The notes beneath the pieces were generated by a model that ran no database searches, had not been told where the DNA came from, and saw only the letters and a list, made by a program, of their open reading frames with translations. 64,000 bases of DNA from Chloroflexota bacterium (GTDB taxonomy: Bacteria; Chloroflexota; Anaerolineae; 4572-78; J111): assembly GCA_016860845.1 (NCBI GenBank), contig BOKF01000004.1, forward strand, positions 293,789 to 357,788. The letters are read 5' to 3'. Below are positions 10,096 through 34,207 of the stretch, one piece after another. Every line of letters starts with the position of its first letter. Position 1 is the first letter of the stretch. A program made the translations under genes and the position numbers.

Positions 10096-10887
10096 ATGGG
10101 GGTTTTAGCAATGGGAGAAATTATCACTCAATACTACGCCTGGCTGAGCAGCCTGGCGGGGTGGCTCACCTTCCCTCTCAGCAAGCTGGCCGACTCGCTT
10201 GACATCCCCCTGGCGTCGGCGTTATTGTTTGGCCTGATCGGCGCGACGGCGCCCTGCCAATTGAGCGGCAGCGTGGCCACCCTGGCCTTTCTATCGCGTG
10301 ACCTGGCTGACTCTCGGCGGCTCTGGTGGCAAGCGCTGGCCTTTGTGGCGGGCAAAGTCACGGTCTACTTACTGGTCGGTGGGATGATCGTTTTGCTCGG
10401 CTGGCAGCTCGATCAACTTAGCCCAACTGCGATCCCGGTGATTGTCTTCGCCCGGCGAGCGATGGGTCCGCTGCTGATTGGAGTCGGCCTGGTGATGGTG
10501 GGCCTGCTCCAGGCTCGTGTATCCCTTGGTAGCCGAGTCTCAACCTGGCTGCAAGCCAAAGTGGGCAAGTCGCAGGGCGCTCTCCCGGCCTACCTGCTGG
10601 GCGTGGCGCTCTCTTTCACTTTTTGTCCGACGTTGTTCTGGTTGTTTTTCGGCTTGACCCTGCCGCTGGCCATCGCTTCGCCGGGTGGTGTGCTCTTGCC
10701 CGGCGTCTTTGCTGTTGGCACAGCTTTGCCCGTGCTGGGCCTGGCCGGGCTGCTTGCCTCCAGCACAGGGAACGTGGGACAGTTTGTAAAGCGCTTCAAG
10801 GCAGCCGATGTTTGGCTGCGGCGCGCAGTTGGGCTGGTGTTTGTGCTCGTCGGGATCAACGAAATCCTACTCTATTGGTTTATCTAA
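10096..10887 (+). CDS. CcdA/DsbD-like thiol-disulfide membrane protein
   Basis: This 263-residue integral membrane protein has about six to seven membrane segments. Two Cys motifs lie in helices as in CcdA/DsbD proteins: ATAPCQLSG near residue 55 and FTFCPTLFW near residue 178. Such proteins carry electrons from cytoplasmic thioredoxin across the membrane to extracytoplasmic thiol partners. A natural client here would be the thioredoxin-like lipoprotein at 12304, with the DUF411 protein as another possibility (inference). An ATG at 10111 (after GGGGGT) is an alternative start and would shorten the protein by five residues. Confidence 0.75.
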   Translation: MGVLAMGEIITQYYAWLSSLAGWLTFPLSKLADSLDIPLASALLFGLIGATAPCQLSGSVATLAFLSRDLADSRRLWWQALAFVAGKVTVYLLVGGMIVLLGWQLDQLSPTAIPVIVFARRAMGPLLIGVGLVMVGLLQARVSLGSRVSTWLQAKVGKSQGALPAYLLGVALSFTFCPTLFWLFFGLTLPLAIASPGGVLLPGVFAVGTALPVLGLAGLLASSTGNVGQFVKRFKAADVWLRRAVGLVFVLVGINEILLYWFI

Positions 10888-11202: not shown

Positions 11203-11619
11203 ATGCACCATATCCAACAAATGTTACAAACTCATCCTCGCCAGAGTCAAGTGGATGGGCAAGCCTTAATGAATTGTATTCAGGAGTGTTTTGACTGCGC
11301 TCAAAGCTGTACGGCTTGCGCCGATGCTTGTCTCGGCGAGCAGAATCTCGAAATGCTTATTCGTTGTATTCGACTGAACCTGGACTGCGCTGATGTTTGC
11401 AGCGCCACCGGGCGTTTACTCTCGCGCCAAACTGAACCTGACTGGACCCTGCTACGCAGCCAGCTTCAAGTCTGCGCTCTGGCCTGTCAGGTGTGTGGCG
11501 CTGAGTGCGAGCGGCATGCTCAACATCACGAGCACTGTCGCGTCTGCGCTGAATCTTGCCGCCGCTGTGAAGCAGCGTGCAACCAGTTGCTGAACGCAAT
11601 CCCCCAAGGCTCAATGTAG
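11203..11619 (+). CDS. Four-helix-bundle copper-binding protein (Csp/DUF326-like)
   Basis: The 138-residue protein carries the repeated CxxC and CxxxC patterns of copper storage proteins. Visible units are CIQECFDCAQSCTACADAC (about 24-42), CIRLNLDCADVC, CALACQVCGAEC and CRVCAESCRRCEAAC. The Cys residues line the inside of a four-helix bundle and bind many Cu(I) ions. There is no signal peptide, so a cytoplasmic form is likely. CAGGAGG lies 7 bases before the ATG. It stands between the CcdA-like protein and the multicopper oxidase group, consistent with copper buffering in the cell. Confidence 0.9.
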   Translation: MHHIQQMLQTHPRQSQVDGQALMNCIQECFDCAQSCTACADACLGEQNLEMLIRCIRLNLDCADVCSATGRLLSRQTEPDWTLLRSQLQVCALACQVCGAECERHAQHHEHCRVCAESCRRCEAACNQLLNAIPQGSM

Positions 11620-11879: not shown

Positions 11880-12286
11880 TTACAATTCGTAGGATGTATA
11901 GTGGTGAAGGAGATCCTCATCCACTCGCCGCTGCCGGGCAGTATGAAAACCGGGTGGCTCTATGCGGCTACGCCGAGCGGCGCTTACCTGAGTAGGATTG
12001 ATTCTGAGGCTGGCGCTCGATGGGCAGTTTGCCTATCAACCCCTTTGTTCACTCCGTGGCCGTAGATACGGTCAACCCAAAACGAGTTTATGCGGCCGGT
12101 CCGGCGGGCCTGTTTCGCTCGGACGACGCCGGACAGACCTGGCAAGCGGCTGATGAAGGGCTAACGGGTGAGCCGCTGGCTGTTGTGCTTGATCCGGCTG
12201 CATCGCAAACAGTGTTTACTGTTTTAACCGACGATTCGGTTTGGCGGTCTCAAGATGGCGGGACCACCTGGCAACCGGCCGAATAA
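11880..12286 (+). pseudogene. Remnant of BNR/sortilin-like repeat protein
   Basis: Two frames together encode the C-terminal part of a BNR-repeat protein. The first reads MKTGWLYAATPSGAYLS up to about 12030. The second, from about 12020, reads VNPKRVYAAGPAGLFRSDDA and ends WRSQDGGTTWQPAE before a stop. The Asp-box motifs (RSDDAGQTW, RSQDGGTTW) are clear. There is no plausible start or signal peptide, and a shift of frame is needed near 12015-12035. The gene therefore looks truncated at the 5' side and frameshifted. Related proteins often sit in metal-response islands. Confidence 0.6.
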
Positions 12287-12303: not shown

Positions 12304-13140
12304 ATGCGGCTAACATTTAAGGAAGTACACCCGCTGACTATCTTGATTTTACTCGAGCTGATTGTGCTTGGGTTAGCCGGTTGTGATGGTAGCACCCCTA
12401 CGCTGGGGCAACCGGGCCAGCCCACACTGGTCTTCATTTATACCGATACCTGACCCCCTTGAGCGAGGATGACGCCCATCGTGGATGGGCTGGAGACTCA
12501 ATATGCCGGTCAAGTTGCCTTCCAACGGATCAATGCTAACGAAGGCGGTGGGCCGGCAATTATGCGCGCCTATCAGGTACAAGGCCACCCCACTATTTTG
12601 ATCGTTGACCGGCAAGGCCGGGAGGTGAAACGGTTCATTGGACCCCAATCGTCGGAACAGATCGCCGAGGGTTTACAGCAAGTTCTGTCTCATGTCCCTG
12701 GCGAGCAGGGAGCAGGTACTCCTGCTACCGTAATTCCCCCTCTGCCAACCCTTGATGCGTCTGAGGTGATCCAGGGACGGCAAATTTATTTGGAACAGTG
12801 CGCCGTCTGTCACGGTCATCAGGCCGAAGGTCAGCCCCAGTGGAAGCAGCCCGACGCCCAGGGCAACATGCCTGCCCCGCCGCACGACGACACCGGTCAC
12901 ACCTGGCACCATGCCGATGGGCTGCTCTATGAAATAATCCGTAATGGTTTTCGCGATCCGCTCAAGCCGCCCGAAAGTCCGCTGACTATGTCTGCTTTTG
13001 GCGACAAGTTGAACGATACGGAAACCCGGGCAGCAATTACCTACTTCAAAAGCCTCTGGTCGGAGCAGAACCGACTGTTTCAATGGCAGGTAACCCAACA
13101 GCAGCCCTTTCCAACCATCACACCGGTAAAAGGGGAGTAA
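12304..13140 (+). CDS. Candidate selenoprotein: thioredoxin-like (UPPU) cytochrome c lipoprotein
   Basis: Reading through two in-frame TGA codons (12451-12453 and 12460-12462) gives one 278-residue protein. It has a lipoprotein signal (lipobox LAGC, Cys27) and a thioredoxin-like domain (about 40-140), starting LVFIYTDT and then Sec50-Pro-Pro-Sec53. The cis-Pro region of a thioredoxin follows (VQGHPTILIVDRQG). A c-type cytochrome domain (about 150-260) has heme motif CAVCH at 166-170 and a Met ligand candidate in LTMSAFGD. Both TGA codons fall exactly at the cysteines of CPPC. The frame is unbroken on both sides and the protein is complete. A SECIS-like hairpin follows. It would act outside the membrane as a thiol/selenol redox protein coupled to heme, perhaps reduced through the CcdA-like protein upstream. 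A read error at both sites or a dead gene is the alternative. Confidence 0.8.
12474..12490 (+). promoter_or_regulatory. SECIS-like hairpin after the UPPU TGA codons
   Basis: GCCCATC (12474-12480) pairs perfectly with GATGGGC (12484-12490) around a GTG loop. The loop begins 19 bases after the second TGA and 28 bases after the first. Bacterial SECIS elements lie in the coding sequence just downstream of TGA, with an apical loop about 16-37 bases away and a G among its first two bases, as here. One hairpin could serve both codons. The fold was drawn by eye, not computed. Confidence 0.6.
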
Positions 13141-13500: not shown

Positions 13501-14592
13501 ATGAAAACTGTTTTGACGATGTTGGTATTATTCGCCATGCTGGTAATCTCAGCCTGTGCGAATGACCCGTCCACTTCGGGGTCGGCCAGCGTTGAGGCCA
13601 CCCCAACCCCTACCCCGGCCAGAATGATGCCCGCCAACGGCGGCATGGAACATTCAATGGACTCGAGCGGTGCGGGAATGGCTCACATGATGGAGCCAAT
13701 CAGCGCCGAGGGTGTTCAACCGGCCACCCAGGATCAGGGTGGACAACCCCTTGAATTTCGGCTTGAAGACGGGATCAAAGTTTTCGAAATTACCACAAAA
13801 CCGGTGCAATGGAAAATCTTGGATGATGTGACTGTGACGGCCTGGACCTATAATGGCACCGTTCCCGGCCCGCTGATCCGGGTCACCGAGGGAGACAAGG
13901 TTCGTATTCTGGTTAAGAACCAACTGTCCGACCCGACTACTATTCATTGGCATGGGATCGAAGTGCCCAATGCGATGGACGGCGTGCCTGATATGACCCA
14001 GGATCCCATCCAACCCGGCCAAACTTTCACTTATGAGTTCACCGCCAAACCGGCTGGTACGTTTATGTATCATTCCCACTTTGAGGGTGATGTGCAGGTT
14101 GGGGTGGGTTTGTATGCCCCCTTTATTATCGAGCCACAGGAAGAGGCCGCCCTTAAGCCTGATGTGGATGTGCCCCTAATGCTGTCGGAGTGGCGGGTGG
14201 TTGATGGCGAGACCTTTGCGGCCATGCCGATGGGGGGAATGGAACCGAACTTCTTTACCGTCAATGGAAAAGCCTTTCCCGCGACGGAGACCCTCAACGT
14301 CAAAAAAGGCCAGCGGGTACGACTACGCTTTATCAATATCGGGCAATTTGTGCATCCCATGCACCTGCACGGCGTTCCCTTCAAAATTGTGGCGACCGAT
14401 GGTCATCCCGTACCGGAGGCCGCCCAATTAACCAAAGACACGGTTGCAGTGGCGCCAGGTGAACGCTACGATGTGGAATTTATCGCCACCGAACCCGGTC
14501 AATGGATGGTTCATTGCCACATCTTACATCACACCACAAACGATAATGTCGAACCTGGCGGATTGATGTTTGTCGTCAATGTCAGTGCCTAA
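13501..14592 (+). CDS. Multicopper oxidase lipoprotein
   Basis: The 363-residue protein has a lipobox (ISAC, Cys19), a short Met/His-rich region (MMPANGGMEHSMDSS) and two cupredoxin domains. The copper-binding motifs are visible: HWHG near residue 150, YHSHFEGD near 190, HPMHLHG near 285 and HCHILHHT near 340. It is shorter than three-domain oxidases and resembles two-domain or compact multicopper oxidases. The expected role is oxidation of Cu(I) to less toxic Cu(II) outside the membrane. A GAGGAAT site precedes the ATG. The YtkA-like gene follows by 27 bases and is probably cotranscribed. A related oxidase lies at 35224. Confidence 0.88.
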   Translation: MKTVLTMLVLFAMLVISACANDPSTSGSASVEATPTPTPARMMPANGGMEHSMDSSGAGMAHMMEPISAEGVQPATQDQGGQPLEFRLEDGIKVFEITTKPVQWKILDDVTVTAWTYNGTVPGPLIRVTEGDKVRILVKNQLSDPTTIHWHGIEVPNAMDGVPDMTQDPIQPGQTFTYEFTAKPAGTFMYHSHFEGDVQVGVGLYAPFIIEPQEEAALKPDVDVPLMLSEWRVVDGETFAAMPMGGMEPNFFTVNGKAFPATETLNVKKGQRVRLRFINIGQFVHPMHLHGVPFKIVATDGHPVPEAAQLTKDTVAVAPGERYDVEFIATEPGQWMVHCHILHHTTNDNVEPGGLMFVVNVSA

Positions 14593-14619: not shown

Positions 14620-15033
14620 ATGCGTTCAAAATGTAGATCCTATTGCTTTTTACTGCTGATGACTCTACTCGCCAGCTTGACCCTCGTTCTGGCTGCCTGC
14701 GGCAGTGCGAGCGCTCCACCGTCACCCCCGGCTACCGCCGAGGCCCAGATTTCGTTAACAACGAACCCAGATCCTCCTCAAAGCGGCGACGTCGAATTGG
14801 TTGTGCAAGTCAACGATGCCCAGGGCCAGCCGATTCCTGATGCGGATGTGTATATTTTTGCCGATCACACTGAGATGAAGGGGATGACTATGAATGGCAA
14901 AGCTTCGGCTCAGGGAGGGGGGCGTTACGCTACCACCGCGGGTTTCGCTCACGGCGGTCAGTGGAAAGTGACGGTTCAAGTTAAGAAAACGCCGCTGGAT
15001 GTAGTCCAGGAGTTTAATCTGGAGTTGAAATGA
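14620..15033 (+). CDS. YtkA-like/FixH-like lipoprotein
   Basis: The 137-residue product has a lipoprotein signal (LAAC, Cys27), a Pro/Ala-rich linker and one Ig-like beta domain of the YtkA type. The domain shows ISLTTNPDPPQSGDVELVVQV, a Met-containing loop (HTEMKGMTMNGK) and GRYATTAGFAHGGQWKVTVQV. Such domains occur with copper proteins, and the Met/His loop could bind Cu(I). GAGGAGAAG lies 6 bases upstream of the ATG. It follows the multicopper oxidase directly and converges with the AAA+ ATPase gene on the other strand. Confidence 0.8.
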   Translation: MRSKCRSYCFLLLMTLLASLTLVLAACGSASAPPSPPATAEAQISLTTNPDPPQSGDVELVVQVNDAQGQPIPDADVYIFADHTEMKGMTMNGKASAQGGGRYATTAGFAHGGQWKVTVQVKKTPLDVVQEFNLELK

Positions 15034-18044: not shown

Positions 18045-18233
18045 TCAGTGGCAGGGAATTACATACAGGCTATGCCGCAGCTCGTGAAACGAGTCGTGTA
18101 GTGGGGGATAGCTGGTAAAAAGCATAGCCCAAACCACCACCGCTACCACTGCCAGAACGACAGTTATCTGGACAAAGGTATTTAAGGTGATGCCAAAAGT
18201 TTGCGTGCTGTACTCATTTAAGGTTTTATACAT
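18045..18233 (-). CDS. cbtB: CbtB-like small metal-transport protein
   Basis: The 62-residue protein has one membrane helix (about 22-42) and a C-terminus HDSFHELRHSLYVIPCH. This fits CbtB, the small partner of the CbtA cobalt transporter, whose end is a His/Cys metal site. It is the first gene after a cobalamin riboswitch and terminator, the usual control of cobalt-uptake genes. No cbtA gene is present here; instead the next two genes encode a membrane protein with Ig-like domains and an AAA+ ATPase. The start has TAGGAG upstream. The identification rests on the C-terminal motif and the riboswitch. Confidence 0.8.
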   Translation of the reverse strand: MYKTLNEYSTQTFGITLNTFVQITVVLAVVAVVVWAMLFTSYPPLHDSFHELRHSLYVIPCH

Positions 18234-18296: not shown

Positions 18297-18420
18297 CAAC
18301 TAAAAATGTGTGATAGCTAGATGAGCGGATGACGGGTAATGATGAGGCATACTCTTACTCCCTTCCACGAGGTTGTATAGAGCCAACAGAGGCGGGCGAC
18401 CTGGCTTAGTCAGATGGAGA

Positions 18421-18487
18421 GTAGCTAGTAGTCAGCAGTCAGTAGTCAGAAAGTTCGTTATCTGACTACCGGCTACTGATTACTAAT
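18421..18487. repeat. Palindromic repeat inside the riboswitch leader
   Basis: Short tandem units of the type AGTAGTCAGCAGTCAGTAGTCAG face their complement (CTGACTACCGGCTACTGATTA), giving a long imperfect hairpin. The unit type differs from the repeats of the defence locus. It lies between aptamer and terminator. Confidence 0.6.
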
Positions 18488-18489
18488 TA

Positions 18490-18645
18490 TCTAACCTTTA
18501 CAGTTACGGGATAGCGCCGGACTTACACCGGCTTCGCCGTTACCGCCCGTGCCATCCGGGGCAACGGGCGCCTCTATTGAATCTCTTCGATTCATAGCCG
18601 CATTATATTACGTTAGTAGTGAAAAGCAAATCACCTTTAAGTGAG
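18490..18645 (-). ncRNA. Cobalamin riboswitch
   Basis: The minus strand contains a typical B12 box at 18500-18532, reading GCCGGTGTAAGTCCGG and then CGCTATCCCGTAACTGT. Just upstream are the GC-rich stem CGCCCGT/ACGGGCG and the GAA before GCCGG that are usual in cobalamin riboswitches. It lies in the leader of the cbtB-like operon, followed by a terminator at 18256-18296. The outer limits are estimated, since no folding was computed. The DUF411 gene ends 43 bases before this element on the same strand. Confidence 0.85.
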
Positions 18646-18687: not shown

Positions 18688-19173
18688 CTACTTGGGGTAA
18701 CTGGCAAAAACTTCCGTTTTGCCCGATTTATCAAACGCAATCACTTCAAAAGGTTCGGGGACAGCTCCTGCCACCTCCATTCCCGGCGAGCCGGCAGGCA
18801 TACCCGCGACAGCCAACCCAACAATGTCAGGCCGTTCGGCTAACAGCCGCCGAATTTCAGCCACCGGCACATGTCCTTCCACTACATAGCCATCAACGAT
18901 GGTCGTATGGCAAGACTGGAGTTCAACCGGGATCTGATAACGCGCTTTTACCGCCGACAGGTCGTTGGTGTCTTCCGCCTTGACAGTAAAGCCGTTTTCC
19001 TGGATATACTCACTCCAGTCGCCACAGCAGCCTCAGGTGGGAGACTTGTAAACAGTGATCTCCGGCGATACGCTTTCTGGTTGGGCCACAGTTGAGGTAG
19101 AAGCAGTCGAGCTACATGCCACCAGCAGCAGTGCCATCAACAGCCCTATCGTTAAAAAAAGTGATCTCCCCAT
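18688..19173 (-). CDS. Candidate selenoprotein: DUF411 metal-binding lipoprotein (UGCC)
   Basis: Reading from the ATG at 19173 through an in-frame TGA (19035-19033) gives a complete 161-residue DUF411 protein. It has a lipobox LVAC (Cys20) and a domain beginning ITVYKSPT, then Sec47-Gly-Cys-Cys-Gly-Asp-Trp. In ordinary DUF411 proteins this motif is CGCC, so the TGA replaces the first Cys exactly. The rest is typical: an NDLSAVKARYQIP region, SCHT, VVEGHVPVAEIRRLL, and a GMPAGSPGMEV loop. DUF411 proteins accompany copper-resistance genes and are thought to bind copper outside the membrane. Without read-through, only a 64-residue C-terminal fragment would be called. A SECIS-like hairpin follows the TGA. 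Confidence 0.82.
19000..19018 (-). promoter_or_regulatory. SECIS-like hairpin after the DUF411 TGA
   Basis: On the minus strand CTGGA (19018-19014) pairs with TCCAG (19004-19000) around a 9-base loop that begins with G. The loop starts 20 bases after the TGA, inside the range seen for bacterial SECIS elements. The stem is short (5 bp), so a computed fold is needed. Confidence 0.5.
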
Positions 19174-25593: not shown

Positions 25594-27738
25594 ATGACAA
25601 CGCATCAAGGACAGTTACACGATCACAGAGATCACATGGGGCATCATGGGTCTCATGGAGACCACGCCCCGACTCAAGCCCACGCCCAGGCCGACCGCAG
25701 CGCCGACCATCAGGCACACAAGGGCCCTTCGGTCTCTGCCCACGCCGGGCACGAGGGCCACGACAAACACGCCGGTCACAGTGAGGCAATGTTCCGCGAC
25801 CGCTTCTGGCTCACCCTGATCTTGACCATCCCGGTCCTCATTTACAGCGAGATGATCCAGCATTTGCTCGGCTTTCACCCGCCGGCCTTCTCCGGCTCCA
25901 CCTGGATCGCACCCCTCCTTTCGAGCTTCATCTTCTGGTGGGGTGGCTGGCCTTTTCTGAAAGGAGCGGTGGCTGAACTGAGCAATCGCCGGCCGGGGAT
26001 GATGACCCTGGTCGCCCTGGCGATTACCACCGCTTACGCCTACAGCCTGGCCATTGATTTGGGACTGGTAGTTGGGATGTCGTTCTACTGGGAAATGGCC
26101 ACCCTGGTCGTCATTATGCTCCTGGGCCACTGGCTGGAAATGCGGGCGGTGGGCAGCGCCCAGAGCGCCTTGAATGAACTGGCCAAGCTCCTGCCTGATA
26201 CAGCGGAACGAATCGTGGCGGACCGTATCGAGCAGGTGCCAGTCAGCGCCCTCACGCTGAATGATCTGGTACTTGTCCGGCCAGGGGCGCAGGTTCCGGC
26301 CGACGGGCAGGTGGAAGAAGGCGAAAGCCAGGTCAACGAGAGCATGATCACCGGCGAGTCCCGCCCGGTCCACAAGCAGCCGGGCAGCGAGGTGATCGCC
26401 GGGACGGTCAACAGCAGCGGCTCGTTGCGGGTGCGGATCACCCGCACCGGCGAGCAAACGATGCTGGCCGGGATTATGCGCCTGGTGGCCGAGGCCCAGA
26501 GCAGCCGCAGCCGGGCCCAAGATTTGGCCGACCGGGCCGCCTACTGGCTGACCTTTGTGGCGCTCGGGGTGGCGGTGGTGACCTTAATCGGTTGGGTTCT
26601 GGCGCGAGGGTTTGACACCTACACCTTGGAACGGGTGGTGACAGTGCTGGTGGTCGCCTGTCCGCACGCTCTGGGGCTGGCTATTCCCCTGGTTATCGCC
26701 ATCTCCACTACGCTTTCGGCCCGCAACGGCATCCTGGTCCGCGACCGGCTGGCGTTGGAACAGGCCCGCCGCCTGAATGTAGTGGTCTTTGATAAAACCG
26801 GCACGCTGACCAAGGGTGAGCAGGGCTTGGTCGCGGTCGCTACGGCTGAGGGAATGGGCGAGGCCCAGGCCCTGGCCCTGGTCGCCGCCGTGGAAAGGGA
26901 CAGCGAGCATATCATTGCCCGCGCCCTGGTTGAAGCGGCTCAAGAGCGAGGCGTCCAAGTCCCGGCGGCCACTGGCTTCCAGGCGTTGCCGGGGCGCGGC
27001 GTCCAGGCTGCGGTGAACGGACGAACCTTGCAGGTCGGCGGGCCGCGCCTGCTGGAACAAGCTGGCGTGAGCCTGCCGGAGACGTTGGCGCACCAGGCCC
27101 AGCAGTGGGGCGAGCGCGGGCAAACGGTAGTCTATCTGCTGGAGGGAAGCCAGGTGTTGGCCGCCTTTGCCCTGGCCGATGTCATCCGCCCCGAAAGCCG
27201 CGAGGCAGTAGCCGCGCTCAAGCAGCAGGGCATTGGAGTAGCGATGCTGACCGGCGACTCCGAGGCCGTGGCCCGTTGGGTGGCCGGCGAGCTGGGCATT
27301 GAAACGACCTTTGCCCAGGTGCTGCCGGAGCACAAGGCCGAGAAGGTCAAAGCCTTGCAGCAGCGCGGCCAAAAGGTGGCCATGGTTGGCGATGGGGTGA
27401 ACGACGCCCCGGCCCTGGCCCAGGCCGATGTGGGGATTGCCATTGGCGCGGGCACGGACGTGGCCCGGGCGTCGGCAGGGATTGTGCTGGTGCGCAACGA
27501 TCCACGCGACATCGGACGGATCATCCAATTGAGCCGGGCCAGTTATCGCAAAATGGTTGAGAACCTGGGCTGGGCGGTAGGCTACAATGCTATTGCCCTG
27601 CCGCTGGCGGCAGGCGTGCTGGCCGGGCTGGGGTTCGTGCTCCCGGCCTGGGTCGGAGCGGTGCTGATGTCGCTGAGCACAATCATCGTGGCTATCAATG
27701 CTCAAACCTTACGGCGGTTGGATTTACGATTAAAGTAA
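25594..27738 (+). CDS. copB: CopB-type copper/silver P-type ATPase
   Basis: The 714-residue P1B-type ATPase has a very His-rich N-terminus (residues 1-65, with HDHRDHMGHHGSHGDH and similar runs) in place of CxxC domains. It has about eight membrane helices. The membrane metal motif is CPH in VACPHALGLAIPL, typical of the CopB (P1B-3) branch that exports copper or silver. DKTGTLTKG contains the phosphorylated Asp, TGES is the actuator motif, and [10 protein letters not shown] is the hinge motif. It pumps metal out of the cytoplasm using ATP. The start has AAGGGGG upstream. Long antisense frames here are due to high GC. Confidence 0.93.
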   Translation: MTTHQGQLHDHRDHMGHHGSHGDHAPTQAHAQADRSADHQAHKGPSVSAHAGHEGHDKHAGHSEAMFRDRFWLTLILTIPVLIYSEMIQHLLGFHPPAFSGSTWIAPLLSSFIFWWGGWPFLKGAVAELSNRRPGMMTLVALAITTAYAYSLAIDLGLVVGMSFYWEMATLVVIMLLGHWLEMRAVGSAQSALNELAKLLPDTAERIVADRIEQVPVSALTLNDLVLVRPGAQVPADGQVEEGESQVNESMITGESRPVHKQPGSEVIAGTVNSSGSLRVRITRTGEQTMLAGIMRLVAEAQSSRSRAQDLADRAAYWLTFVALGVAVVTLIGWVLARGFDTYTLERVVTVLVVACPHALGLAIPLVIAISTTLSARNGILVRDRLALEQARRLNVVVFDKTGTLTKGEQGLVAVATAEGMGEAQALALVAAVERDSEHIIARALVEAAQERGVQVPAATGFQALPGRGVQAAVNGRTLQVGGPRLLEQAGVSLPETLAHQAQQWGERGQTVVYLLEGSQVLAAFALADVIRPESREAVAALKQQGIGVAMLTGDSEAVARWVAGELGIETTFAQVLPEHKAEKVKALQQRGQKVAMVGDGVNDAPALAQADVGIAIGAGTDVARASAGIVLVRNDPRDIGRIIQLSRASYRKMVENLGWAVGYNAIALPLAAGVLAGLGFVLPAWVGAVLMSLSTIIVAINAQTLRRLDLRLK

Positions 27739-31738: not shown

Positions 31739-34207
31739 ATGAATGCGAAACAAGTGACTTTACCCATTACCGGCATGACCTGCGCCAACTGTGCGGCGAC
31801 CATCGAGCGTGGGCTGAAGAAACTGCCTTCTGCCCAGAACGCTGCTGTCAACCTGGCCTCCGAGCGGGCCTCGTTGGCGTTTGATCCTGACCAATTGACG
31901 CTGGATCAAGTCATCGCCCGCATCGAAAAATCCGGCTATGGCGTGGCCATGGCCGAAGTCACCCTGCCTATTCGCCGCCTAAGCGACAACAGCGACGCTC
32001 AACGCCTGGAGAAGACCCTGCGCCAACTGGATGGCGTGGTTGAGGCCAGTGTAAACTACGCTGCCGAAAAAGCCATCGTCAAATATATCCCTACTGTAGT
32101 CAGCCAGGGTGACCTGCGCCGGGCTATTGGCGCGGCCGGCTTTGAGACTGTCATCGTCGAGGGCAATGCTGAAGACGCCGAGCGCCTGGCTCGCGAGAAG
32201 GAGATCAACCATCAGAAGCATTTACTGGTTGTCGGTCTTATCTTCACCGTGCCGCTGTTCCTGCTGGCAATGGCCCGTGACTTTGGCCTGCTCAACTCGT
32301 TTTTTGGTGGAATGATGCCCGGGATGATCATGGCCGGACACGGTGTGGTCGCGCCCTGGTTCAACTGGCTCTTGTTTGCCCTGGCCACGCCGGTACAGTT
32401 TTATGTCGGCTGGCAATACTACATCGGCAGCTACAAGTCGCTGCGCAACGGTTCGGCCAATATGGATGTCCTTATCGCAATGGGCACGACGGTAGCGTAT
32501 CTCTACAGCGTCGTCGTGCTCCTGGCTACGACCGTGTTCAATAGCAATGTGATGGGCGACCACGTCTACTTTGAGACGGCGGCCGTTATCATCGTTCTGA
32601 TCGTCCTGGGCAAATTTCTCGAAGCGCGAGCCAAAGGCCAAACTTCCGAAGCCATTAAGAAGCTGATGGGCCTGCGGGCCAAAACCGCCCGCGTTATCCG
32701 CGACGGCGCAGAGGCCGATGTGCCGATTGACGACGTGCGTGTGGGTGATCTCGTTCTGGTTCGCCCCGGCGAAAAAATCCCAGTAGATGGTGTGATCGTT
32801 GAGGGTAAGTCCACGGTGGACGAATCAATGCTGACCGGTGAGTCCATGCCGGTCGAAAAGTCATCCGGGGCAGCGGTTATTGGGGCCACTATCAACAAAC
32901 AAGGCTTACTCAAATTTGAAGCGACCAAAGTGGGCAAAGAAACGGTCCTGGCGCAAATTATCAAGTTGGTCGAAGAAGCGCAAGGCAGCAAAGCGCCGAT
33001 CCAGAAGTTGGCCGACTATGTCTCGTCCATCTTCGTGCCAGCCGTGATTGTCATTGCCTTGCTCACCTTTCTCGGCTGGTACTTCCTCGGCGGCGCGGGC
33101 TTCACCTATGCCCTCATCAACATGGTGGCGGTGCTGGTCATCGCCTGCCCCTGCGCCTTGGGGTTGGCCACACCGACAGCCATTATGGTAGGGACCGGCA
33201 AAGGCGCCGAACGCGGCCTGCTGTTCAAATCGTCCGAGGCGCTGGAGCGGGCCGGCAAAATCGGGACGGTGGTCTTGGATAAGACCGGCACTATCACCCG
33301 TGGTCTCCCAACCGTGACCGATATCGTCCTGAACGGCAGAGGACTGGCTGAAACTGAAGTCCTGCGGCTGGCCGCGTCTGCCGAAAAAGGTAGTGAGCAT
33401 CCGCTGGCCGAAGCCATCGTCGCCGCCGCCACCGAACGCGGTCTGAAGTTCGGGGATTTGGCCGGTTTTCAAGCTATCTCCGGGCAAGGCATTGCCGCCC
33501 AGGTCGACGGTCGCGAGGTGCTTGTCGGCAATCCGCGGCTGATGGAAGCACGAGGACTGGCTCTTAACGGTCTTGAAAAGGAAGTTTCTCGCCTGCAGTC
33601 GGAAGCCAAAACGGCGATGATCGCCGCGGTGAACGGCGAAGTCACCGGGGTGATCGCTGTCGCCGATACCATCAAAGATGGCTCGGTTGAGGCCATTGCC
33701 GAACTCCACCGGATGGGACTGGAAGTGATTATGCTCACCGGCGACAATCAGAAAACAGCCGAGGCGATTGGCCAAGCGGCTGGCGTAGATCGAGTGATTG
33801 CAGAAGTGCTGCCGGGCGACAAGGCTGCCGTCGTCAAGAAGTTACAGGACGAGGGTAAGGTTGTGGCTATGGTCGGTGATGGCGTAAACGATGCGCCGGC
33901 GTTGGCCCAGGCCGATGTCGGCATCGCCATCGGCACCGGCACAGACGTGGCTATGGCTGCTGCGCCGGTGACCCTCATGAGTGGTGATTTGCGCGGCGTG
34001 CCCCGGGCTATCGCCCTATCGCGTCGCACGATGCAAACCATCAAACAAAACCTGTTCTGGGCCTTCTTCTACAACGTTATCCTCATCCCGGTGGCAGCGC
34101 TGGGTTGGCTGGTGCCTATCCTGGCAGCTGCGGCCATGGCCTTCAGTTCCATCTTCGTGGTAACGAACAGCCTGCGGCTGCGCGGCTATAAGCTTGACTC
34201 CGCCTAG
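31739..34207 (+). CDS. copA: CopA-type Cu(I) P-type ATPase
   Basis: The 822-residue P1B-1 ATPase exports Cu(I). The first HMA domain has GMTCANCAA near residue 15. The second (about 78-140) has the fold but no CxxC: the motif is replaced by [10 protein letters not shown], so only one domain can bind metal in the usual way. The membrane motif CPC lies in [13 protein letters not shown], the phosphorylated Asp in DKTGTITRG, and TGES and [10 protein letters not shown] are present. It is preceded by csoR- and copZ-like genes in the same direction, so one copper-induced operon is likely. A second ATPase of the CPH type lies at 25594. Confidence 0.95.

Follow-up and report, generated by a model that had tools for sequence, protein, structure and literature searches.

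A predicted double-selenocysteine thioredoxin–cytochrome c lipoprotein in Chloroflexota and its probable connection with copper handling

A thioredoxin gene with two in-frame TGA codons

What does a gene encode if its reading frame is broken twice by TGA, at the very two codons where a thioredoxin would have its active-site cysteines? This question is raised by a gene at 12304–13140 of a 64-kb stretch of DNA from a Chloroflexota bacterium (hereafter the window; its features lie on the + strand unless stated otherwise). The frame runs from ATG at 12304 to TAA at 13138–13140 (278 codons) and is open except for the two TGAs, which are codon 50 (12451–12453) and codon 53 (12460–12462), so that the active-site codons read TGA-CCC-CCT-TGA. 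An earlier note on this DNA had placed them at both cysteine positions of a thioredoxin CPPC motif, and that is where they lie. The product is predicted to be a double-selenocysteine (Sec) thioredoxin–cytochrome c lipoprotein of 278 amino acids, with U50 and U53 as active-site positions 1 and 2. A short BNR/Asp-box ORF (12020–12286), perhaps the remnant of a larger gene, is found just upstream.

The note had also described a lipobox, a cis-Pro region and a CAVCH motif around the active site, and all three are present. The putative lipobox is LAGC (residues 24–27, 12373–12384), the Cys of which is invariant in an alignment of nine thioredoxin-only relatives (A2). The thioredoxin domain (residues 37–125, 12412–12678) scores 43.7 bits against the Pfam model PF00085 (cut-off 23.5) when both TGAs are written as Cys, has its redox residues two apart, and includes GHP, whose Pro is the cis-Pro of this fold (residues 94–96, 12583–12591; invariant in alignment A1). 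The class I cytochrome c domain (residues 157–252, 12772–13059) exceeds the cut-offs of both Cytochrom_C, PF00034 (36.4 vs. 21.3 bits) and Cytochrome_CBB3, PF13442 (33.8 vs. 27 bits). It has the heme-binding CxxCH motif as CAVCH (residues 166–170, 12799–12813) and, within TMSAF (residues 228–232), a Met that may be the distal ligand, in a part where the structural model is poor. That model (AlphaFold2, 31 aligned rows) has an overall pLDDT of 71.5. Its cytochrome part is poor throughout, and most blocks of the thioredoxin part are at 84–92, with 66 for the block after the motif. The matches listed by Foldseek are thioredoxins, or fusions or complexes with thioredoxin, the best being 1fb0 (E = 7e-8).

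More specific family models place the protein less well. It reaches 46.5 bits with the thioredoxin equivalog TIGR01068, below the curated cut-off of 96.8; thioredoxin and ResA/DsbE-type models match weakly (20 bits for the ResA model, cut-off 170). No match to NF041115, a known UxxU family, was found for P0001 or for the L103 and L099 proteins, and in NCBIfam release 20.0 no model exceeded its cut-off with any of these three proteins or with the DUF411 protein of the window (see below). A codon-usage scan of the window picked up both TGAs along with chance sites, but not the DUF411 gene.

Both TGA codons are conserved in relatives

Querying a protein database with the complete 278-residue protein yielded 289 matches, 120 of them listed. 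Among the matches listed, the 31 closest (P0002–P0032, 64%–93% identity, with cytochrome c domains) all start at the Met just after the motif (M-[TK]-P-I-V-[DN]-G-L-E), as gene callers would cut a TGA-bearing frame. An open CxxC frame at the motif was seen only in P0100 (33% identity, a peroxiredoxin fusion) among 24 listed matches that were read. A profile built from nine thioredoxin-only members matched 228 proteins, with 113 new identifiers among the 120 listed. Here, 103 of the 113 start with Met and at most three residues before P-[IVL]-[VIL], and four start slightly differently or further down. The other six are full length with W at both positions (P0122, P0123, P0124, P0125, P0138, P0193), as if called with genetic code 4; tryptophan records of this kind hide selenoproteins. 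Neither these six nor the four have CxxC. Because the profile search scored only the 7996 candidates that shared most words, remote Cys forms may have been missed in it; such forms were recovered by the thioredoxin-profile search of genomic DNA described next. It should be noted that the family is largely hidden in protein databases because gene callers cut its UxxU members behind the motif.

At the DNA level, we searched the 396 genomes of the class to which the genome of locus L039 (an Anaerolineae bacterium) belongs. The full protein matched 76 of the 396 at E ≤ 1e-20, and every one of the 11 listed matches extending across the motif has at least two TGAs (two also have a TAA or TAG). The thioredoxin profile matched 262 of the 396 at E ≤ 1e-12; its best 40 rows all have two TGAs, and rows with one or none come after these. 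We then compared 96 relatives that cover both columns and are distinct over 150 nt around the motif. Both positions are TGA in 53 (UxxU), the first only in 20 (UxxC), and neither in 23 (CxxC). This set leaves out duplicates and loci that yielded no row (e.g., L174), and the collection of loci with flanking DNA excludes at least seven further two-TGA rows (G230:C34, G211:C466, G301:C39, G320:C67, G022:C768, G022:C879, and G170:C50). The exchange of Cys and Sec that the earlier note had proposed looking for in homologs is thus seen at both sites, and, as is characteristic of bacterial selenoproteins, UGA is found in frame where homologs carry Cys. The residues between the two positions vary (PP, AP, IP, QP, VP, AA, PA, PS, GP, and others). 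The note's argument that chance stops would hardly fall on both codons gains force from the fact that 53 of the 96 distinct relatives have TGA at precisely these two columns.

Of the relatives found, the closest all either have UxxU or are truncated at the motif's downstream side. Besides the window gene, full-length fusions at the DNA level are L001 (UAPU, 64% identity in the thioredoxin part, a single in-frame TAA downstream) and L066/L096 (UAPU, 48% identity over the whole protein). The other relatives that we translated whole are thioredoxin-only, most with a recognizable lipobox (L097 and L105 are cut by contig ends). L001, the closest full-length DNA relative, is on contig QWHO01000225.1 of G001, a genome named bacterium CPR1. 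Within the 18 genomes of its class, the gene was found in G001 only, and five other matches are CGPC thioredoxins. Given the absence of the gene from the 17 other genomes, the G001 bin may be mixed and this contig wrongly placed in it, its true source being perhaps a Chloroflexota genome. The 43 genomes of the phylum of G021 gave no match at E ≤ 1e-20, a result to which we attach little weight.

Other ORFs with in-frame TGA were encountered along the way. Two cytochrome c homologs have one TGA within the match (G252:C207:5855–6235 and G139:C7:99250–99621). Peroxiredoxin-like ORFs with a TGA occur on the + strand of L003 (near 8814, FRUQLC), L004 (near 8729, VTUQLC) and L002 (near 1366, YVUDAC), at <1 kb from a homolog of the cytochrome c studied here in L003 and L004 and at ∼6.6 kb in L002.

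A shared SECIS-like hairpin

The earlier note had suggested a SECIS search of 12450–12500, and a SECIS-like hairpin does lie inside this interval: GCCCAUC-GUG-GAUGGGC, at 12474–12490. It lies 12 nt after the second codon and recurs in relatives as CCCATC-GTG-GATGGG or a variant. In the window, its loop starts 18 nt behind the second UGA and 27 nt behind the first, and in UxxC genes the hairpin is the same 27 nt from the sole UGA. Published limits for bacterial SECIS elements are a loop of 3–9 nt with G among its first two positions, a stem of 4–16 bp, and a spacing of 16–37 nt (PMC13188914); for folding energy, an MFE at or under −7.5 was required. Counted from either UGA, the window hairpin lies within these limits (triloop GUG, 7 bp, 18 or 27 nt, −11.6 kcal/mol over 22 nt).

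The five outer pairs all form in 48 of 53 UxxU genes and 19 of 20 UxxC genes, but in three of 23 CxxC genes (67 of 73 TGA-bearing genes vs. three of 23; Fisher's exact test, 1.5e-12). When the protein was kept and synonymous codons were drawn by the codon usage of the window, the numbers expected were 2.5 of 53, 1.5 of 20 and 0.4 of 23, respectively, and the shuffle maxima were eight for UxxU (2000 shuffles) and seven for UxxC. No other in-frame offset up to 117 nt shows this geometry in more than four UxxU genes. Paired positions also change together. Positions 4 and 12 are A-T in 60 genes and G-C in 13, and positions 3 and 13 are C-G in 59, T-A in nine, T-G in three and G-C in two, with at least six changes on the tree (see below) for each pair.

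Folding alone is weak evidence for the hairpin. The 22-nt element by itself folds unusually well (z = −3.2), and 55-nt folds from the second UGA contain it in 14 of 15 genes (it is missing in L096). The 50-nt stretch behind the first UGA folds unremarkably (z = −0.98 in the window, −1.13 in L098, −0.58 in L084), and in L098 it folds otherwise. Among CxxC genes, L189 and L206, sisters to the UxxC genes L185 and L177, respectively, have five or four of the pairs and look like recent Sec losses that keep a relic hairpin. Most rows of the L193–L203 group also form four or five pairs, with a UxxC neighbor that is only weakly joined, and this pairing may be partly chance.

These observations bear on two other explanations of the TGAs. 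They could be real stops (regulated termination or low read-through), with translation yielding mainly a lipopeptide of 49 residues or else an independent product that starts at a downstream Met. Most members do have a Met after the motif, at which gene callers begin the protein. However, a product begun at that Met would be without the first thioredoxin strand, the active site and the signal peptide, CxxC relatives have Cys at both places, and the hairpin has the geometry of a SECIS element; we regard genuine termination as improbable. A second explanation, that the gene is decayed or that assembly error turned TGC or TGT into TGA twice, could appeal to the additional TAA in L001 and to the BNR-like fragment at 12020–12286, which is perhaps decayed. 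We give it very little probability, as against it stand the same two codons in 53 distinct sequences, the conserved synonymous sites of the hairpin, and the intact Pfam domains on either side of the motif. From the conservation of the two TGAs across relatives, we reject chance or error as their source.

History of the second selenocysteine

A tree was built from 95 thioredoxin domains over 78 columns, with Sec written as Cys (one row with <60 residues was dropped); with so few columns, its deeper forks are unsure. A branch with support 99/93 separates all 52 UxxU rows from the remaining ones, among which UxxC and CxxC are scattered. Position 2 requires a single change on this tree, and position 1 requires eight. 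Because the UxxU rows group together, the second Sec was probably gained once, in a UxxC lineage, and because that lineage already had the older hairpin, the gain would have needed no new one.

Selenocysteine machinery in related genomes

We searched 36 related genomes for the machinery of Sec insertion, picked non-randomly among those already met. Eighteen have a UxxU gene, as assigned from the listed rows of the thioredoxin-profile search plus G001. With a clear tRNA-Sec defined by a minimum score of 62 bits (gathering score 47) and SelB by a match at E ≤ 1e-60, tRNA-Sec was found in 15 of the 18 carriers, SelB in 13, both in 12, and at least one in 16. The exceptions are G212 and G022. Matches just over the gathering score in G126 and G022 (47.3 and 47.5 bits) were excluded because genomes with a clear gene (e.g., G300, G325) show such second matches too. 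G022 (7.3 Mb) has at least three UxxU genes and neither clear component, and could be an incomplete or mixed assembly, or an exception. Since the other 18 genomes have the machinery about as often (clear tRNA-Sec in 14, SelB in 17), co-occurrence is not diagnostic, and the machinery in carriers is a consistent condition rather than proof. ARAGORN found no tRNA within the 64-kb window.

A second selenoprotein candidate

The window encodes another predicted selenoprotein, a CopG/DUF411 lipoprotein on the − strand (18688–19173, 161 aa), in which TGA (19035–19033) takes the place of the first Cys of the CxCC motif (YKSPT-U-GCC). It scores 93.8 bits with the DUF411 model (cut-off 27) and aligns with the CopG structure 6WIS over residues 39–160 (E = 6e-34), from which it differs in the TGA at the first CxCC position. 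CopG is a thioredoxin-like protein that binds a copper cluster through CxCC (PMC7558416). Of 32 DUF411 loci that were read, 23 have TGA and nine have Cys at the first residue of CxCC, and 22 of 44 DUF411 matches in the 396 genomes have a TGA. A fixed-geometry search for a SECIS element found a common 4-bp stem in at most seven of 20 TGA-bearing genes, so we claim none for this gene. Close by, a cobalamin riboswitch (18374–18590, − strand, 52.9 bits) precedes a small membrane protein (18045–18233) that we take to resemble CbtB.

The CopG gene also bears on whether UGA might be read as Trp (genetic code 4 or 25), as the six database proteins with W at both places might suggest. Such a code would put a Trp pair into a thioredoxin active site and a Trp into the CxCC of CopG, both implausible, in genomes most of which have tRNA-Sec and SelB. 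In the window, six of 30 ORFs end in TGA, and Trp is written TGG 245 times, on which ground we reject this reading; as an explanation of the two TGAs, it is scarcely worth entertaining.

Gene neighborhood and proposed role

Neighborhoods were compared for 52 UxxU loci (53 were given, but L266 repeats L101) with ∼5 kb flanks, less on short contigs, and for 20 control loci (ten one-TGA and ten no-TGA rows of the thioredoxin-profile search). Near the 52 we found cytochrome c at 25, P1B ATPase at 17, CopZ-like genes at seven and CsoR-like genes at six, counts in which the window and L103 match themselves, having supplied the queries. In 34 of the 52, one or more of these four kinds of gene or CopG is near; the other 18, some of which are on short contigs, have none. 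At the thresholds used, none of these genes was found at the 20 UxxC or CxxC control loci. Because L074/L265, L084/L264 and L101 had first been found through their cytochrome gene, we give separately the 37 loci picked by the thioredoxin profile (L227–L263), where cytochrome c is near 18 and any linked gene near 21 (Fisher's exact test against zero of 20 controls, 7e-5 and 7e-6, respectively). The order csoR-copZ-UxxU-copA is found in L100, L102, L103, L104 and L106, and L254 has the same four genes plus cytochrome c; the CsoR and CopZ names are tentatively assigned from sequence features. In L001, L099 and L101 the UxxU gene has a CopG/DUF411 gene next to it; in the window the distance is 5.5 kb.

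The window itself is rich in copper genes. Upstream of the fusion gene are a DsbD_2/CcdA-like membrane protein (10096–10887; PF13386, 59 bits; NCBIfam ArsG, 166 bits, cut-off 200) and a Cys-rich protein like the copper storage protein Csp1 (11203–11619; TIGR04401, 40 bits, cut-off 100; DUF326, 25.7 bits, above its cut-off of 20.4). Downstream lie a multicopper oxidase that is probably a lipoprotein (13501–14592; Pfam Cu-oxidase domains, all NCBIfam matches below cut-off), one of two in the window, a YtkA-like protein that is also a probable lipoprotein (14620–15033, Pfam), and two copper-type P1B ATPases, at 25594–27738 (TIGR01511, 600 bits) and 31739–34207 (Pfam, with two HMA stretches; TIGR01511, 620 bits; cut-off 397 for both). 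The suggestion in the earlier note that the CcdA-like protein at 10096 feeds electrons to the fusion protein is borne out as far as the DsbD_2 match goes, and the protein is a plausible donor, but besides the query window a nearby copy was found only at L098 among the 52 loci. We take it to be the nearest counterpart here of ScsB. Neither the copper context nor the shared hairpin nor the second selenoprotein candidate had figured in the earlier note.

ScsC, whose predicted partner is ScsB, uses an active-site cysteine, is not known to have a heme domain, and is related to the window protein by function only. ResA, which is anchored in the membrane on the outside, reduces heme-site cysteines, and both ResA and TlpA have CxxC and are not known to have a cytochrome domain; the window protein would share their external anchoring but has UxxU and a cytochrome domain. 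ScsC is a protein of thioredoxin fold that works outside the cytoplasm and is linked with copper resistance (PMC5524982), and TlpA, also membrane-anchored outside, reduces the copper-site cysteines of oxidase subunit II (PMC7558416). These two cases show that proteins with this fold do take part, beyond the cytoplasmic membrane, in resisting copper and in reducing copper sites.

We consider it quite likely that both TGAs encode Sec by way of one hairpin and that the product is a diselenol–heme lipoprotein of extracytoplasmic copper handling, which is also the most likely setting for the UxxU family as a whole, judging from its gene neighbors. Both UGAs would be decoded through the single hairpin at 12474–12490, and the lipoprotein would sit on the outer face of the cytoplasmic membrane. 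There, the Sec–Sec pair could cycle between diselenol and diselenide and trade electrons with the protein's own heme c, a putative one-electron outlet, with flow in either direction and with copper or thiols as substrate. More generally, the cytochrome c that is near in about half of the loci and fused in the window would take or give single electrons. The pair might hold copper-exposed sites in the reduced state, or it might receive Cu(I) or electrons at the CopA exporter's exit. A Sec–Sec pair would be expected to resist over-oxidation and to bind Cu(I) tightly.

Alternatively, the protein could be a true double-Sec thioredoxin whose job is general disulfide reduction, or oxidase or cytochrome maturation in the manner of TlpA and ResA, with the copper genes as mere neighbors. 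The weak matches to thioredoxin and ResA/DsbE-type models, the CcdA-like protein in the window and L098, and the activity of TlpA on oxidase copper sites would all suit such a role, as would an adjacent or fused cytochrome c that is commoner than CopA (25 vs. 17 of 52 loci). It is harder to reconcile with csoR, copZ and copA beside L100, L102, L103, L104, L106 and L254, with the adjoining CopG in other loci, and with the wealth of copper genes in the window, and we hold it to be rather unlikely, if far from negligible.

Relation to known selenoproteins and significance

An inventory of May 2026 counts 119 selenoprotein families (PMC13188914). Its Table 1 gives PF00085 and PF13098 only as UxxC, and its UxxU families are a Prx-like thiol:disulfide oxidoreductase (PF00578), the metal-binding NF041115, and an FmdB-like family. 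A double-Sec PF00085 thioredoxin, a selenocysteine CopG (DUF411) and a thioredoxin–cytochrome fusion are all absent from the families it lists. The UxxU passages of PMC9312934 and PMC2398784 name other families, and we found no description of a UxxU thioredoxin–cytochrome c in the open-access literature searched. The window protein shares with the UxxC thioredoxins of PF00085 the fold, Sec at position 1 and a SECIS element behind the UGA (PMC13188914), but differs in having Sec at both positions, a predicted lipid anchor, a fused heme domain and a copper-gene context. With the three known UxxU families it has in common two Sec in a CxxC-type motif, with UGAs 9 nt apart, although none of the three is PF00085 or fused to cytochrome c in Table 1 of the inventory (PMC13188914).

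Double-Sec active sites are rare, and the relatives described here form a large natural series of CxxC, UxxC and UxxU versions of one small thioredoxin in which the hairpin largely tracks the UGA. Such a series allows direct tests of the rules for SECIS elements, of how a second Sec is gained and of what benefit a diselenide brings. As a tentative and somewhat doubtful extension, Anaerolineae may have a selenium-based copper system in which one hairpin serves two UGAs, the second added once, and the diselenol–heme lipoprotein, acting together with a Sec-containing CopG, oxidizes or reduces copper at the exit of CopA. Taken at the level of predicted proteins, the finding suggests that selenium is tied to bacterial copper handling through two separate proteins.
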